A DNA stretch of 64,000 nucleotides from the NCBI GenBank assembly GCA_030841085.1, contig JAVEDP010000025.1, positions 248,001-312,000 on the forward strand. The letters run 5' to 3'. Of this stretch, positions 3,193 to 49,389 are shown in pieces. This stretch comes from Pyrinomonadaceae bacterium (GTDB lineage: Bacteria; Acidobacteriota; Blastocatellia; Pyrinomonadales; Pyrinomonadaceae). The notes under the pieces are model-generated. The model saw nothing but the letters and a program-made list of their open reading frames with translations. It ran no database searches and had not been told where the DNA came from. A program made the position numbers and the translations under genes. The stretch's first letter is position 1. Each line of letters starts with the position of its first letter.

Positions 3193-3312
3193 CTGGGACC
3201 GCGGGCGTCTCGCCCGCTAAGTCGCGGCAGGTGCAACTTCAGCAACGCAAACGATCACCAAACTCCTTTCGCGCTTCGCGCTCATTGCGGGCGGGACGCC
3301 CGCGGTCCCAGT
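3193..3312. repeat. Long inverted repeat, family G
   Basis: The left arm starts CTGGGACCGCGGGCGTCTCG and the right arm (about 3275-3312) is its reverse complement with few differences. The arm is itself a hairpin (GCGGGCG-TCT-CGCCCGC). It lies in the gap between two minus-strand genes. Confidence 0.85.
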
Positions 3313-13256: not shown

Positions 13257-15548
13257 TTATTCCTGGCCCAGTGGCAATTTAATCGTGAACGTCGTCCCTC
13301 GCCCGCCGTCCGACCGCAGTGCAATGCTGCCGCCGTGATCGTGAATTGTCTTGCGAACGATCGCCAGGCCCAATCCCACTCCATTCGGCCGCGTCGTAAA
13401 GAACGGATCGAAAACTTTGTTCAGATTTTCGATAGCAATCCCTGCGCCAGTGTCGCTCACCTGTATCTGCACCTGCGAAGGTCCGTTCGCTTCCCTGCTC
13501 GACGCCAGCCGAATTTCGCCTCCGCGCGCGGTGTGCTGTAACGCATTCTCAAAAAGGTTCGCAAAGACGCCATACATCTTGCGGCGGTCGACACGCGGGT
13601 AGCCAACCTCTTCCGGATACTCGACCGTCAGCCTGATGCCTTTCTTTTCCGCCTGGCTGCGAAATTCTTCTGCGACTTCAGCAATTACTACGCGCAAGGC
13701 GGAATCGTCGGTGTCCAGGCGCACCGGACGGCTGTGCTCAAGCAATTGCTCCATCAAATAATTTAGCCGGCTCACTTCCGTCATCACGACATCGAGGAAC
13801 GGTTGCACTGCTTTACGATCCGCCAGCCGCCGCGCCAGCGCGCTTAACGTCGTCGTGATGCCAAACAGCGGATTGCGCACTTCATGCGCGACTCCGGCCA
13901 CCAGTTCGCCCACCACGGCAAGCCGCTCGGAAATGATCAGTTGCTGCGACAGTCGCTTCTGCTCAGTTACATCTTTGACTATTCCAAGGTGAAACACTTT
14001 GCCGTCGGCCGCATCAGTAACCGCGCGAACACTAAGACGCGCCGGCATCAATTCGCCGGTTTGCCTGCGCAGGTCGCATTCGATGTCCAGCGCTTTGCCT
14101 TCGCGCGTAAGTTGATTTTGCAAGCCCGTTCGTGCCATGTCGCTTAGCACGAGTTCGTCAATAAGGTTGACGCCTTCCAGCTCTTCACGCGAATCGTAGC
14201 CAAGCATTGCCGCCAGCGCCGGATTAATGTTTACCAGCTTGCCTTGCGGAGTACTGCGATACAGGCCATCGACCGCGCTTTCAAATATCTGGCGATAGCG
14301 TTCTTCGGACTCGCGCACTTGTTCGAACAGTTGCGCGTTACGCAACAAGTGCGCTGCCTGCGTCGCGAAGATTGTTACCAGTCGCTTTTCTTCCTCACGA
14401 AAACCGCCCTGCTTGTTGATGACCTCGATCGTGCCGAGCATGTGTTGCCCGGCATTCAGCGGCACGGCCAGCAACTCGCGAATATTCCCTTGTGCCTTTT
14501 CGCTCAGCAACGGATCCATGCGCGCATCATTCGTCATGTACGCCTCGCCGGTGCGAAACACGCGCGTGGCAATGCTGCTTTCTTCAGGGGCGAAACTCAG
14601 GCTTAGGAGGTCTTCATCACGCATGCCGTACGCGGGCACCTGTGCGTGGATGCGCTTCTTTCGTTCGTCGTATAAGAGGATCACGCAGGTTTCAGCGCCC
14701 AACAGCCGCGCAATCTTTCGTGTCAGCAATTCGCAAATCTGACTGACTTCGGCGCCGGTGCCCATCAGCAACGAGATGTGATAAAGGCCGCTGGAGCGCT
14801 CGATTTCCTGTTGCAGTTGCAGCGCCGCTTCATTAATCGTCTGCGCAAGTTGTCCGATTTCGTCTTGCCGTTTCACCTCCAGCGGTTCGACCACGCCGCC
14901 AACCGTGAGACGAGCGGCGAGTTCTTCCATTTCCCGAAGCGGTTTGAGTATGACGAAGTAAAGAATGCCAACGGTTATGGCAGCCGTAACAACGAGTGAA
15001 GCAATCGCAGCTTGAATCGCAATTCCCACCTCGGTCGAGTCAATAAAAAAACGCGAAGCGAAGTACGCGACCAACAGCGCCAGCAAAACGGCTAGCCAGC
15101 CGGCGGCAAACTTCCCAATCAAACTGCGGCGCGGATCGAACAACCAGCGCGCGGAAGGCTTTTTCGCAATGCGACTGCGATCCTTTATTTCCTGAATGGC
15201 GCGAATCGCTTCTTCGCGAGTCGCAAAAATGTTGGATTCGAGATCCTTCGCGGCGCCGAGGTAACGCAACACCGAACGCGTCAGGCCGCTCGAGGAATAA
15301 CGGACCGTCTTCAGGCTGTAACGATCGTAAAGGTCCTTAATGCTTTCGCCGTAGTAATCGACGATCTCCGGCGCCATCTCGGTGCCTTCATAGTTGACGA
15401 CGGCGTAAGCGCGGCCACCTGCGAGCGTGGCGCGCACCATACGCCGCATTTCGTCCACCTGCTCGCGGGTTTCAATGCGCAGACCGGCGAGGTCGATGAA
15501 GAGGATGTTTTCCCTGGCGTCAAATACGAATCGATCTTGAAACTGCAT
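13257..15548 (-). CDS. Membrane histidine kinase (HAMP-GAF-PAS-HisKA-HATPase)
   Basis: A 763-residue sensor kinase. Residues 1-125 form a soluble alpha/beta domain resembling a STAS/SpoIIAA-like fold (FVFDARENILFIDLAGL), unusual for this position. Two membrane helices (about 146-168 and 178-201) enclose only a short external loop. HAMP (200-250), GAF (about 255-405) and PAS (about 412-530) domains follow. The HisKA domain carries phospho-acceptor His555 in GVAHEVRNPL, and the HATPase domain has the N, G1 and G2 boxes (NLFENALQH, DTGAGI, GVGLGLAIV). The tiny extracellular loop suggests an intracellular or membrane signal read by GAF/PAS. It pairs with the downstream NtrC-type regulator. Confidence 0.92.
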   Translation of the reverse strand: MQFQDRFVFDARENILFIDLAGLRIETREQVDEMRRMVRATLAGGRAYAVVNYEGTEMAPEIVDYYGESIKDLYDRYSLKTVRYSSSGLTRSVLRYLGAAKDLESNIFATREEAIRAIQEIKDRSRIAKKPSARWLFDPRRSLIGKFAAGWLAVLLALLVAYFASRFFIDSTEVGIAIQAAIASLVVTAAITVGILYFVILKPLREMEELAARLTVGGVVEPLEVKRQDEIGQLAQTINEAALQLQQEIERSSGLYHISLLMGTGAEVSQICELLTRKIARLLGAETCVILLYDERKKRIHAQVPAYGMRDEDLLSLSFAPEESSIATRVFRTGEAYMTNDARMDPLLSEKAQGNIRELLAVPLNAGQHMLGTIEVINKQGGFREEEKRLVTIFATQAAHLLRNAQLFEQVRESEERYRQIFESAVDGLYRSTPQGKLVNINPALAAMLGYDSREELEGVNLIDELVLSDMARTGLQNQLTREGKALDIECDLRRQTGELMPARLSVRAVTDAADGKVFHLGIVKDVTEQKRLSQQLIISERLAVVGELVAGVAHEVRNPLFGITTTLSALARRLADRKAVQPFLDVVMTEVSRLNYLMEQLLEHSRPVRLDTDDSALRVVIAEVAEEFRSQAEKKGIRLTVEYPEEVGYPRVDRRKMYGVFANLFENALQHTARGGEIRLASSREANGPSQVQIQVSDTGAGIAIENLNKVFDPFFTTRPNGVGLGLAIVRKTIHDHGGSIALRSDGGRGTTFTIKLPLGQE

Positions 15549-44857: not shown

Positions 44858-46426
44858 TTACTGCTTTTCGTTTTCCACCGGTTTCGAATGCGCGGCTTCT
44901 TTCTTGGCTCTGCCATACAACTCGGTCAAGTCTCGCAAGCGAGCTGAGATTTCACTCGTTAAAGCCCCGGATTTGAAGCGCCAATTCCAGTTACCTTTTG
45001 TGCTGTTCGGCAGATTCATTCGCGCTTCAGTCCCCAGTCCGAGCACATCCTGCAAAGGGACAACTGCCGTGTCAGCTACCGAAGCCAATACCGCCCGAAT
45101 AAAGTCCCAATGAATTTCTTTGCCGTCCGTATCGAGATATCTAAGGCAGAACTCACGCTCGGCCTCTATTTGATTGGCGGTGCGGGTTGAACCTTCTCCG
45201 GCAGCGCTATTGAACCAGCCCACCGTCGTGTCGTTGTCGTGAGTGCCGGTATAGACAACTACATTGCGATGATAGTTGTGTGGCAGATCGATATTTTTCG
45301 TGTCACTGCTAAAGCCAAACTGAAGGATTCGCATGCCGGGAAAATTGAAGTCGTCACGCAACCTCTCAACATCCGGCGTGATGACCCCCAGGTCCTCCGC
45401 GATGATTGGCAAATCTCCAAGCTCTTGCCTGATGGCGGTAAACAAAGCTCGGCCGGGAGCGTCGACCCAACGGCCGCGCTCAGCCGTGGTGTCACCCGCC
45501 GGAATTTCCCAGCACGCAGCGAATCCCCGAAAATGATCGATGCGAACAATATCAACAATCCGGAGCGCCGTCTGCACGCGCTCGATCCACCACTTGAAAC
45601 CGTCACGAATCATGCCGTCCCAGTTGTAAAGCGGATTACCCCAGTATTGACCAGTCGCACTGAAGTAGTCTGGCGGCACCCCGGCCACGACCAGCGGGCT
45701 ACCGTTCTTGTCGAGTTTGAACTGCTCGGGGTTGGTCCAGACATCCGCCGAATCATGGGCCACGAAAATGGGAATGTCCCCCACCAGACGGATACCGCGT
45801 TCGTTGCAGTAGTCTTTCAGCGCGAACCATTGTTTGAAAAAAAGAAACTGGAAAAACTTATGCGCATCTATTTCTCGACGCAGTTCCTCGCGCGCGTGGG
45901 CCAATGCATTTGGTTCTCGATGTACGAGCGGCTCTTCGCATTCATGCCATGCTATGCCGCCGTTCGCGCTCTTGAGCGCTCGAAAGAGAGCATAGTCATC
46001 CAGCCAGGAATGGTTCTCCTGGACGAAAGTTTCAAAAGCCACGCGCAATGCCGTATCAGTGCTATGCAGGTAACGTTCGTAAGCGCGTTGCAGAAGATCA
46101 TCTTTGTATTTATGGACGCTTTCAAAATCAACCTGCTGCGAGGATAGTTCGGGAACGGACGACAAATCACTGCGAGTGAGCAGCCCGTCGTCCGCCAGTT
46201 GTTCGGGACTGATGAGCAACGTGTTTCCGGCAAATGCTGAATAGCACGCGTAAGGTGAATCACCATATCCGGTTGGACCAAGCGGCAAGACTTGCCACAG
46301 GCTTTGTGCGCCTGCCGCCAGAAAATCTGCGAAGGCGTATGCTTCGGGTCCTAAGTCGCCGATACCGAAAGGTCCCGGCAAAGAAGTTGGGTGAAGCAGA
46401 ACGCCGCTGGATCTGGGAAAGTTCAT
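44858..46426 (-). CDS. malQ: 4-alpha-glucanotransferase (amylomaltase, GH77)
   Basis: A 522-residue GH77 amylomaltase, cytosolic with no signal peptide. It begins with the family hallmark RSSGVLLHPTSLPGPFGIGD. The nucleophile Asp is in VRIDHFRGF (near 295), the acid Glu in IIAEDLGVITPDV (near 340) and the third Asp in TGTHDNDTTVGWF (near 396). It transfers maltosyl or longer units between maltodextrins and frees glucose, feeding the ROK glucokinase of the same locus. The RAYT transposase and its hairpin array lie directly upstream and separate it from GH13 copy 2. Confidence 0.95.
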   Translation of the reverse strand: MNFPRSSGVLLHPTSLPGPFGIGDLGPEAYAFADFLAAGAQSLWQVLPLGPTGYGDSPYACYSAFAGNTLLISPEQLADDGLLTRSDLSSVPELSSQQVDFESVHKYKDDLLQRAYERYLHSTDTALRVAFETFVQENHSWLDDYALFRALKSANGGIAWHECEEPLVHREPNALAHAREELRREIDAHKFFQFLFFKQWFALKDYCNERGIRLVGDIPIFVAHDSADVWTNPEQFKLDKNGSPLVVAGVPPDYFSATGQYWGNPLYNWDGMIRDGFKWWIERVQTALRIVDIVRIDHFRGFAACWEIPAGDTTAERGRWVDAPGRALFTAIRQELGDLPIIAEDLGVITPDVERLRDDFNFPGMRILQFGFSSDTKNIDLPHNYHRNVVVYTGTHDNDTTVGWFNSAAGEGSTRTANQIEAEREFCLRYLDTDGKEIHWDFIRAVLASVADTAVVPLQDVLGLGTEARMNLPNSTKGNWNWRFKSGALTSEISARLRDLTELYGRAKKEAAHSKPVENEKQ

Positions 46427-46441
46427 TCCGATAATCTATTT

Positions 46442-46485
46442 GATCTTCTCGATCTTCTTGATCTTCTTCATCTTCTTGATCTTCT
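46442..46485. repeat. 9-bp tandem repeat next to REP array
   Basis: Five consecutive units of GATCTTCTT (variants GATCTTCTC, CATCTTCTT, GATCTTCTG) lead directly into the first hairpin unit at 46486. The same GATCTTC precedes each of the next two hairpins, so it seems an expansion of the hairpin's left flank. Confidence 0.85.
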
Positions 46486-46625
46486 GTTTAGATAGCGGAC
46501 TTGTCCGCCTGCTTTTTTGGCTAATATCTTTTTGATCTTCCGTTTAGACAGCGGACTTGTCCGCCTGCCTGCTTTGGACTGTATCTATTTGATCTTCTGT
46601 TTAGACAGCGGACTTGTCCGCGTGC
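46486..46625 (+). repeat. REP-like hairpin array, three units
   Basis: Three units start at 46486, 46542 and 46599, spaced 56-57 bp. Each reads GTTTAGA[TC]AGCGGACTTG then TCCGCC/G. The hairpin is GCGGAC-TT-GTCCGC with conserved 5' flank GTTTAGA. The third unit lies inside the 3' end of the transposase gene. The array is in inverted orientation relative to that at 47294-47470. Confidence 0.9.
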
Positions 46626-47217
46626 TTTCGGCTGCACTCAACTCTTCCTCACTCCACAACCAGCGCTGATCTATTTCGATCGGCACACTGCCGGGTTCAT
46701 GCGGCAGATACGCTTTATAACTCGACCACCGCCACTTTCCAGGATGATCGCACAGTCCCGCGCGGACCGGATTCATGTGGATATAGTTAAGCTTCTGACG
46801 AATGAACTTGCGGCTCCAGATATCAATCGCTGAAAACTCTTTCATCCAAACTGCATGAGTCTGACCAGACTTGAGTGGCTTTTCCAAGGCTAGCTTGGCG
46901 AGCGACGTCGACTGAACTTCAGCCCGCAACCAATTCAGAATTGAAACCGCCGATCTACCTTTGAGTCTGCCTACTACGACACTTATGTCCAGACAAAGTG
47001 GGTTAGCCAGCAGATGAATATGATTGGGCATAATTACATAACCAATAAGCTTGAATGGCTCCTTGTCGCGCGTCGCTGCCAGAGCATCAATGAAGAGTGA
47101 GCACGTATGATCTTTGCGAAAGACCGGAACGCGATCAAAGGTAACTGATGTTACATAGTGAACAAGGTTTGGCTCTTGCGATTTGAAGAGACGCATCTTT
47201 CCCGGGCGCTTAAGCAT
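46585..47217 (-). CDS. REP-associated tyrosine transposase (RAYT, Y1 HUH family)
   Basis: A 210-residue Y1-type transposase of the RAYT/IS200-related group. The HUH metal motif is in YVIMPNHIHLLANP, and the C-terminal family signature KLNYIHMNPVRAGL is followed by WRWSSYKAY. The catalytic Tyr is expected in the helix around that signature. RAYTs cut and join single-stranded hairpin REP sequences. The last residues (STRTSPLSKQKIK) are encoded by a REP unit, so the reading frame runs into its own repeat. ATG 47217 or ATG 47196 (MRLFKSQ) may be the start. All motif residues look intact, so the enzyme may be active. Confidence 0.88.
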   Translation of the reverse strand: MLKRPGKMRLFKSQEPNLVHYVTSVTFDRVPVFRKDHTCSLFIDALAATRDKEPFKLIGYVIMPNHIHLLANPLCLDISVVVGRLKGRSAVSILNWLRAEVQSTSLAKLALEKPLKSGQTHAVWMKEFSAIDIWSRKFIRQKLNYIHMNPVRAGLCDHPGKWRWSSYKAYLPHEPGSVPIEIDQRWLWSEEELSAAESTRTSPLSKQKIK

Positions 47218-47293
47218 GCCGAGTGGACCTCTCTATCTTCGTTTACTGACAGACCCTATCCGCTGCGAACAGGGCAACGACGTTCAATTTTGC

Positions 47294-47470
47294 GGGACGG
47301 CGCACAAGTGCGCTTTCTAAACGCAGTCGAATCATTTTTTGTGCGACGGTGCACAAGTGCGCTTTCTAAACCGGTGACCGATCATTTTTTGTGCGACGGC
47401 GCACAAGTGCGCTTTCTAAACCGGTGACCGATCATTTCTGCGCGACGGCGCACAAGTGCGCTCTCTAAAC
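47294..47470 (-). repeat. REP-like hairpin array, four units
   Basis: Four units end at 47322, 47371, 47421 and 47470 (period 49-50 bp). On the minus strand each reads GTTTAGA[AG]AGCGCACTTG then TGC, followed by a GC-rich CGCCGTCGC tail. Compared with the downstream array the stem GCGGAC/GTCCGC has become GCGCAC/GTGCGC, with both sides changed together. Confidence 0.9.
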
Positions 47471-47487
47471 GGAACACTGAATTACTG

Positions 47488-49389
47488 TCAGCGGAGCTTG
47501 TATGCGACAGCGAGACGTGCCGGAATATTTAGCACCGCTTGGCCGTTCGCGATGCGAGTGCCTCGCGAGCCGCCGATCAAATTCGCGAGTTCAGATCCAT
47601 CCCTTAAGCCAATCGCGCTCGCCGGCACGCTCACTTTCTTTTCCATGTCCGCGCGATTAAATGCAACAATCACAGTTTCGCCTTTATCCTGTCGCGCAAA
47701 CACGTAGCACTCATCGTCATAGAAAAGATCTATCAAACGCCCGCGTCTGATCGCCGGATGTTCAGCGCGAAGCCTGATCCACGAGCGTGTCCATTCGAAC
47801 ATCTCCTGCTCTTTCGATTTTCTGCCGGAAGCTGCGAAAGCATTCCGTGAGTCGCCGGGAAACCCGCCGGGAAAGTCTCGGCGATTGTCCGGATCGTCCT
47901 TGCCTTCCATCGCAATCTCCTCGCCGTAATAGAGCTGCGGGATACCTCGCGTGCTGAGCATGAAAGCGGTATGCAGCTTCGCTCCTTCCAGCGTTGCTCC
48001 ATCGAGCGACATGAAACGAGGTTTGTCGTGATTATTTGTGAGGGTCGTTATTCTTGCCGGGTCTGGATAAAGCGCGTCGTATTTCAACTGATCGCGCAGA
48101 GCTCGCATTGGGACCTTGTTCGTGAAGGCAAGCAGCGACGTGTGCCAGAGCGCAAAATCAAAAACCGAATCCAGCTTCGTGTCGACGCCGTCCCAGCCTG
48201 TATGCCCACCGATGAAGAATGAGGTCTGGGCCGCGTCTTCTTCAAAAACTTCGCCTACCATCCAGATGCGCGGGTACTGGCGATGCAAAGCGTTGGAAAG
48301 CTCGCGGATAAAACTGCGCGGCATGTATTGGATAGTGTCCTGTCGAATTCCATCAATTCCCGTCGTTCCAATCCACCAGATCGCATTCTGAATTTCGTAG
48401 CGAGCAACTTCCGGTTCCTCCTGGTCCATGTCGGGCAAGTCGTCGCTAAACCAACCGTCAAGCGTATTACGGACCTCGGCGCCATTCGCATGGGGAGAAA
48501 GAAGAGTGCTGTTCTTGAACTTATTAACTTCATGTTGGCCCACACTTCCGTGAAACCAGTTTTCTAATGGTGGATCCCTAACCCAGGGATGCTGCGAACC
48601 GACATGATTCCCGACTTGATCCTGAATGATTTTCAATCCCAGCGCGTGCGCCTTCTCGACTAATTCGCGAAGCGTTGCCAGATCCCCGAAGTGATCTTCC
48701 ACAGCGTAATAATCGATAGCGTGATAGCCGTGATAATAAGTATTCGGACACCAGGGCTTATCGCAGTTGTTCACTCCGTTCCAGTTGTCGTACCAGGGAG
48801 TTAACCATAGCGCCGTCACACCCAGTTCCTTCAAATACGAAAGGTGATTGATTACACCGCGCAAATCGCCACCGTGATAAGACCGGGGGTTGCTGCGATC
48901 AGTTGCGTTTGCCGGCGCATTGCGCGGTGCGTCGTTCGCAGGGTCTCCGTCGGCAAAACGATCGGTCATGATCAGATAGATGACATCGTCATTGGTGATG
49001 CCCTGAAAATGCGTCCGCGAATCAAGCTGAGGTTCGACATGGAATGGAATGGTGGCCTTGCCTTCAGTTGTCTGAACCGTTAGCAGATAGATTCCAGGTT
49101 TCGCTCGGGCACTGACCGTAACATCAACAAACAAATAAGTGCCGCGCTCATTTATCCGAATGGCAGACGTACGTAGCGAGGTTGTATTTGCACTAACACG
49201 AGCGCCGCTCAGGTTGCGGCCGCGCACCAGAAGTCTAACGGGATTGATGCTGCTACCGGCCCACCACGAGGGCGGGTCTACCTTCGCAATTTCCGGAGGT
49301 GCGGCGCTGAGAGGAACCGCGTTAGCGAGTAAAAGGAGAAATGCGCCTGCCGCGACCTTCACAAAGCAGTCAAATTTTGACGTTCGCAT
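47488..49389 (-). CDS. GH13 cyclomaltodextrinase-type enzyme, copy 2
   Basis: A 633-residue exported paralogue of the enzyme at 42894. It has a signal peptide (VAAGAFLLLLANAVPLSA) and the same N-terminal Ig-like domain (PEIAKVDPPSWWAGSSINPV). The catalytic set is Asp in GIRQDTIQYMP (near 349), Glu in MVGEVFEED (near 377) and Asp in LTNNHDKPRFM (near 453). Here the canonical NHD of region IV is kept, unlike copy 1. A small beta domain ends in NIPARLAVAYKLR. The two paralogues probably divide linear and cyclic or branched maltodextrins, which is inference. The stop codon is 18 bases from the upstream REP array of the transposase. Confidence 0.9.
   Translation of the reverse strand: MRTSKFDCFVKVAAGAFLLLLANAVPLSAAPPEIAKVDPPSWWAGSSINPVRLLVRGRNLSGARVSANTTSLRTSAIRINERGTYLFVDVTVSARAKPGIYLLTVQTTEGKATIPFHVEPQLDSRTHFQGITNDDVIYLIMTDRFADGDPANDAPRNAPANATDRSNPRSYHGGDLRGVINHLSYLKELGVTALWLTPWYDNWNGVNNCDKPWCPNTYYHGYHAIDYYAVEDHFGDLATLRELVEKAHALGLKIIQDQVGNHVGSQHPWVRDPPLENWFHGSVGQHEVNKFKNSTLLSPHANGAEVRNTLDGWFSDDLPDMDQEEPEVARYEIQNAIWWIGTTGIDGIRQDTIQYMPRSFIRELSNALHRQYPRIWMVGEVFEEDAAQTSFFIGGHTGWDGVDTKLDSVFDFALWHTSLLAFTNKVPMRALRDQLKYDALYPDPARITTLTNNHDKPRFMSLDGATLEGAKLHTAFMLSTRGIPQLYYGEEIAMEGKDDPDNRRDFPGGFPGDSRNAFAASGRKSKEQEMFEWTRSWIRLRAEHPAIRRGRLIDLFYDDECYVFARQDKGETVIVAFNRADMEKKVSVPASAIGLRDGSELANLIGGSRGTRIANGQAVLNIPARLAVAYKLR

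Follow-up and report, generated by a model that had tools for sequence, protein, structure and literature searches.

The window analysed here is a stretch of 64,000 nucleotides (bases 248001-312000) of a 401,941-bp contig, C31, in the 4.69-Mb, 43-contig genome of a Pyrinomonadaceae bacterium (G000). It contains a Y1/HUH gene located between malQ and a GH13 gene, with three hairpins downstream and four upstream (Table 1). A first-pass annotation of the sequence had already described this arrangement, and it proved accurate: both neighbours are identified by Pfam matches, and all seven hairpins carry an exact GTTTAGA head and point head-out around the gene, the two groups thus being oppositely oriented. 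The downstream hairpins read GCGGACTTGTCCGC on the plus strand, and the upstream hairpins read GCGCACTTGTGCGC on the minus strand. There are seven exact sites of GTTTAGANAGCG within the window, a number that was reached in none of 100 dinucleotide shuffles, even with one mismatch allowed. The 9-mer TTGATCTTC, which is tandemly repeated next to the first downstream hairpin, also stands before every downstream hairpin. Both arrays consist of tandemly duplicated hairpin-plus-spacer units (57-bp units downstream, 49-50-bp units upstream), and the copies within an array are therefore not independent evidence. Other REP families of this genome (the L017, L022 and L024 types) are present at window positions 3309, 3414, 18709, 22030, 32160 and 33263, and nearby.

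Table 1. Features at and around the RAYT locus (positions within the window).
Feature	Position	Strand	Details
malQ (GH77 4-alpha-glucanotransferase)	44858..46426	-	Adjoins RAYT downstream; Pfam PF02446, E 2e-185
9-bp tandem tract	46440..46485	.	TTGATCTTC x5, not a hairpin
Downstream headed hairpin 1	46486..46508	+	GTTTAGA-TA-GCGGAC(TT)GTCCGC
Downstream headed hairpin 2	46542..46564	+	
RAYT (TnpA-REP) gene	46585..47217	-	210 aa; H66/H68 HUH, catalytic Y145, W124, SS165-166
Downstream headed hairpin 3	46599..46621	+	Overlaps 3' end of the RAYT ORF
Upstream headed hairpin 1	47300..47322	-	GTTTAGA-AA-GCGCAC(TT)GTGCGC
Upstream headed hairpin 2	47349..47371	-	One uncompensated stem base (GTGCAC)
Upstream headed hairpin 3	47399..47421	-	
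Upstream headed hairpin 4	47448..47470	-	
GH13 alpha-amylase/cyclomaltodextrinase-like gene	47488..49389	-	Adjoins RAYT upstream; Pfam PF00128, PF09087

The proposed identity of the Y1 gene as a REP-associated tyrosine transposase (RAYT) was corroborated. Its product scores 96.9 bits against the NCBIfam model of that name (NF047646, cut-off 80), and an AlphaFold2 model based on an alignment of 23 relatives (pLDDT 91.9) has as its top PDB match 4er8 (E 2.5e-7), the E. coli TnpA-REP in complex with a REP hairpin. H66, H68, Y145, N149 and S165 are invariant across the 23 aligned sequences and W124 is found in at least 90% of them, and the protein thus has the HUH motif, the one catalytic tyrosine and the C-terminal motif by which RAYTs are recognized. 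The gene is single-copy, the closest other Y1/RAYT protein within the genome being 39% identical, and together these data support its classification as a single-copy domesticated RAYT. In total, the genome carries ten Y1/RAYT-like genes; the others (L015, L017-L024, other contigs) mostly have their own, different flanking inverted hairpins, with GGTCRGG-, GTAG-, GTAA-, GTGCGG- and other heads.

Several of these features would also be shared by a conventional IS200/IS605 insertion sequence, one that transposes whole and has the hairpins for its left and right ends: Pfam Y1_Tnp matches the protein, the predicted HUH Y1 fold also matches the structures of ISDra2 and IS608, these elements carry a 5' guide sequence at their subterminal hairpins, and the unlike stems on the two sides of the gene recall left and right ends. 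However, the protein reaches only 17.9 bits with the NCBIfam IS200/IS605 model, far under the cut-off of 55, and no second copy of the gene was found in the genome. Furthermore, hairpin arrays and dispersed pairs occur without the gene, and near-identical copies of gene plus ends at other sites were seen in none of 162 genomes of the class. We therefore regard an insertion sequence of this kind as highly improbable.

The locus resembles the REPtron of E. coli (TnpA-REP with Y and Z REPs; PMC6006769, PMC8266576) in having one RAYT flanked by inverted, 5'-headed hairpins of two subtypes, in the dispersed intergenic pairs and in the protein fold. It differs in its head, which is GTAG there and GTTTAGA here, in a stem without a bulge, and in the contact residues: of those that read GTAG in E. 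coli TnpA-REP (PMC6006769), only W94 is kept, as W124, and a pairwise alignment places M125, A130, I131 and W134 at the positions of Q95, E100, H101 and R104. The canonical REP head GT[AG]G is absent from the window's hairpins, whose GTTTAGA belongs to a clade-wide GTTNAGM head. With RAYT subclass 2.6 (Bertels group 5; PMC6006769), the protein shares the HUH motif as NHIH, a YIHxNP tyrosine motif, the downstream SS and a longer HUH-Tyr spacing, and the locus shares atypical, non-GT[AG]G hairpins that are copied elsewhere. Compared with the published motifs of this subclass (NH[LIV]H, WQ, YIH[QN]NP and SS; Table 1 of PMC6006769), NHIH and SS agree, while WM and YIHMNP deviate. Overall, the window REPtron appears closest to subclass 2.6 (Quentin et al. 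2018), although that subclass has been reported mostly from Bacteroidetes, and the present case comes from Acidobacteriota. Its atypical hairpins were already known in general terms (PMC6006769). The acidobacterial TIRYT/TIRtron genes (PMC3733652) are likewise RAYT relatives whose flanking inverted repeats are not GTAG REPs, but they have long terminal inverted repeats (TIRs), some with a GGGGWSAS motif, in place of the short headed hairpins that here form arrays and REPINs, the head-out hairpin pairs.

A search for further copies, which the first-pass annotation had proposed, was successful. The relaxed pattern GTTTAGA-N6-ACTTGT has 21 exact sites in G000 versus one for reversed-pattern controls, the copies are intergenic by ORF calls, and they are often inverted pairs. 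The dispersed intergenic pairs expected of a REPtron are thus present, though confined to one contig: all GTTTAGA-ACTTGT hairpins of the genome are on C31, where they group into five clusters (44, 64, 89, 120 and 294-295 kb; 44412-120233 and 294486-295470). The four clusters without the RAYT sit between long ORFs, in some cases between convergent genes. C31 makes up 8.6% of the genome, and if placement were uniform, all four of these clusters would fall on it with a probability of about 5e-5. This distribution could point to a recent acquisition of C31, by transfer or as its own replicon, from a species such as the congeneric G005. The GC content and tetranucleotide profile of C31 are, however, like those of other contigs, the other REP families of G000 occur both there and on many further contigs, and stretches of C31 have about 64-82% DNA identity to G005, as have sampled stretches of other contigs, so that such an acquisition is very unlikely. 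Mis-binning of C31 was also considered as a cause and was rejected on the basis of composition and the shared REP families. Outside C31, G000 was covered by sampled stretches and by pattern searches. A further hairpin family, GTTCAGAGT[CA]CAACCTTYAGGTTG, whose head resembles GTTNAGA, has 40 copies in G000 at up to one mismatch (control 0); these are mostly solitary and spread over many contigs (C12, C15 and C22, and on C31 at 228058-228081, outside the window). This family also occurs in G005; a RAYT specific to it was not located.

Across the 162 genomes of the class, 14 encode a RAYT at E <= 1e-38. At most RAYT loci of this clade, GTTNAGM stands immediately before the stem, or in one genome at a distance of 0-2 bases, and the stems vary by species (GGCGGGC, GTCGGGC, GCAGCGC, GCAATGC, GGCGGTC and others). 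In a maximum-likelihood tree of the RAYTs, the GTTNAGM loci form one group, the GGTCRGG loci a second, and those with GTGCGG-like heads a third; the support of the GTTNAGM group (82/88) lies under the strict threshold. These comparisons support that the head tracks the RAYT clade, while the stems appear to change. Headed hairpins were counted with two IUPAC patterns and reversed-pattern controls, and at least five were found in 14 of the 162 genomes, namely in 7 of the 14 RAYT-bearing genomes versus 7 of the 148 others (Fisher 1.7e-5, uncorrected for kinship). The seven genomes without a detected RAYT of the clade, most of which are draft assemblies, comprise G005, G100 and five species congeneric with the RAYT-bearing G148 and G152. 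G100 has 95 hairpin copies and distant RAYTs only; two of its hairpins, spaced by 700 bp (G100:C15:146031-146748), enclose a small cytochrome-c-like ORF and no RAYT.

The sister species G005 (97% complete) allowed the comparison of orthologous sites. It has 45 exact GTTTAGA-N6-ACTTGT sites on 27 contigs, and hence at least 45 dispersed copies, but a RAYT of the window lineage was not found in this genome; RAYT fragments that we considered as possible remnants belong to other lineages. In the G005 gap between GH13 and malQ, a truncated GCAC hairpin is fused to a GGAC hairpin and followed by a second GGAC hairpin, in the same order as in the window and with no RAYT, and in three other genomes malQ and GH13 are aligned only 5-29 nt apart. 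This is most simply read as loss of the RAYT from G005 through a deletion between hairpins, although the window's lineage may instead have gained it late. Moreover, two junctions within the same operon carry REPINs in G005, whereas the genes adjoin tightly there in G000, and REPINs therefore come and go at orthologous sites. At another orthologous intergenic site (L120, ~13290-13400, versus L172, 2964-3023), a GTTTAGA REPIN in G005 corresponds to hairpins of other REP families in G000, which suggests a shared insertion hot spot. A head-out REPIN also lies at L176 (~1476-1568, G005:C54) at what resembles the junction of a rearrangement, the collinearity with C31 being broken there (287 kb to 381 kb).

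The first-pass annotation had stated that its reading would fail if related genomes had these repeats without any RAYT, while RAYT-bearing relatives lacked them. The first half of this constellation indeed occurs, since in G005, G100 and several sister species the repeats are found but a RAYT of the clade was not detected. The second half largely does not: most RAYT loci of the clade have headed hairpins, with none seen at L293 and L298 or at L058 and L059, copies that are broken or lie at a contig end. The repeats thus seem to outlive the enzyme, and their presence without a RAYT does not refute the link. The loss of REPtrons with survival of their repeats has already been described in E. coli strains (PMC3733652). 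The hairpins could also have been retained by the host as transcription terminators or as mRNA-protecting structures, with the RAYT having merely settled among them. Host functions of REPs have been published, all checked copies are intergenic, and the position of some between convergent genes would suit such a role. However, no conserved T-run follows the hairpins, the conservation of the head goes with the RAYT clade and not with the host gene context, and the presence of hairpins at one gene junction varies between species, which together make a host role very unlikely as the explanation.

Another aspect is the compensation of the stems. According to the annotation, both sides of the stem had changed together between GCGGAC/GTCCGC downstream and GCGCAC/GTGCGC upstream, and this holds for six stems, but the stem at 47349-47371 (GCGCAC/GTGCAC) has changed on one side only, which weakens the predicted single-stranded DNA fold from -5.5 to -1.1 kcal/mol. 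We examined covariation in 84 hairpins of G000 and G005, counting stem pairs from the ACTTGT core outward. Pair 2 hardly varies, and pairs 1, 3 and 4 are G-C/C-G in 49/31, 45/34 and 49/21 hairpins. Watson-Crick pairs were found at these three positions in 82, 79 and 75 of the 84 hairpins, with shuffled means of 41.2, 40.4 and 40.2; this null ignores relatedness and array duplicates, and the differences are still large. Pooled, the three positions comprise 229 G-C/C-G pairs, 7 A-T pairs and 16 mismatches. Across this sequence set, hairpin pairing is evidently under real constraint.

The annotation had taken the compensated changes to imply selection, and the covariation speaks for this, although compensation alone is no proof, since it can be mimicked by template switching during replication, in which one arm is copied onto the other. 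Template switching has been reported to generate hairpins and to maintain them (PMC8794818), and pairing persists in G005 and G100, where the cognate RAYT was not found. On the other hand, seed mutations arising at random would frequently be transitions, leading to A-T pairs, which are scarce here in a genome of 54% GC, and mismatched intermediates are present, while head and loop remain fixed. We consider it doubtful, albeit conceivable, that template switching rather than selection for a RAYT-recognized hairpin produced the compensated stems. It may supply some of the second or double changes, on which selection then acts, but the scarcity of A-T pairs is not explained thereby.

The two stem versions of the window could be a founder effect. 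As every cluster in G000 has GGAC-stem hairpins in one orientation and GCAC-stem hairpins in the other, they look more like two types of end on a single element than like plain drift. The 28 head-out pairs of G000 and G005 include none whose two sides share the same four-base stem core (null mean 4.4, P = 0.004), and GGAC/GCAC pairs account for 18 of them (null 12.7, P = 0.026); the P values are uncorrected for several tests, and the copies are related. Differing ends also flank the RAYTs of G152 (GGCGGAC/GCCGGAC), G076 and G074. A universal rule had to be rejected, as L290, L291, L295, L055 and L054, and likewise one hairpin pair of G100, have the same stem at both ends; different ends are thus a tendency. 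A mobile REPIN with two distinct ends, similar to the left and right ends of IS200/IS605 but with the identity in the stem (GGAC versus GCAC) and not in the head, is a tentative idea to which we would give a minor chance; the Y and Z2 REPs around the E. coli RAYT are a precedent for two end types. If it were true, unlike stems would stop inverted hairpins from pairing together, and each would fold alone for the transposase.

In summary, the locus is very probably a REPtron, a single-copy domesticated RAYT bracketed by head-out copies of its hairpin, as the first-pass annotation had proposed. This reading agrees with the RAYT identity, the gene's private hairpins in inverse orientation on its two sides, the dispersed intergenic paired copies, the RAYT-less orthologous site and the REPIN-free junctions. 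Against it stand the missing GT[AG]G head and its missing E. coli contact residues, the seven genomes that are rich in copies without a detected RAYT of the clade, and the location of all G000 copies on one contig. We infer that the window RAYT binds and cleaves single-stranded DNA, probably the lagging-strand template, and mobilizes its hairpins. It would recognize the fixed head GTTNAGA together with the shape of its GC-rich hairpin, Tyr145 would nick beside the hairpin, and REPINs of about 50-100 bp would be transferred to intergenic sites elsewhere. The gene encoding it would stay in place and eventually be lost, with the hairpins remaining. Both local arrays expanded via tandem duplication.

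The REPtron is a known kind of repeat-enzyme pair, to which this locus adds a good example with a non-canonical head. It bears on how RAYTs select their repeats and on what maintains the repeats after enzyme loss, as within one RAYT clade a seven-base head is kept while the stems freely swap G-C to C-G, and related genomes offer gene plus repeats, repeats alone, or neither. This separates the enzyme's probable sequence readout, of head and loop, from a shape readout of the stem, and yields testable residue-to-head predictions beyond the well-studied GTAG systems.
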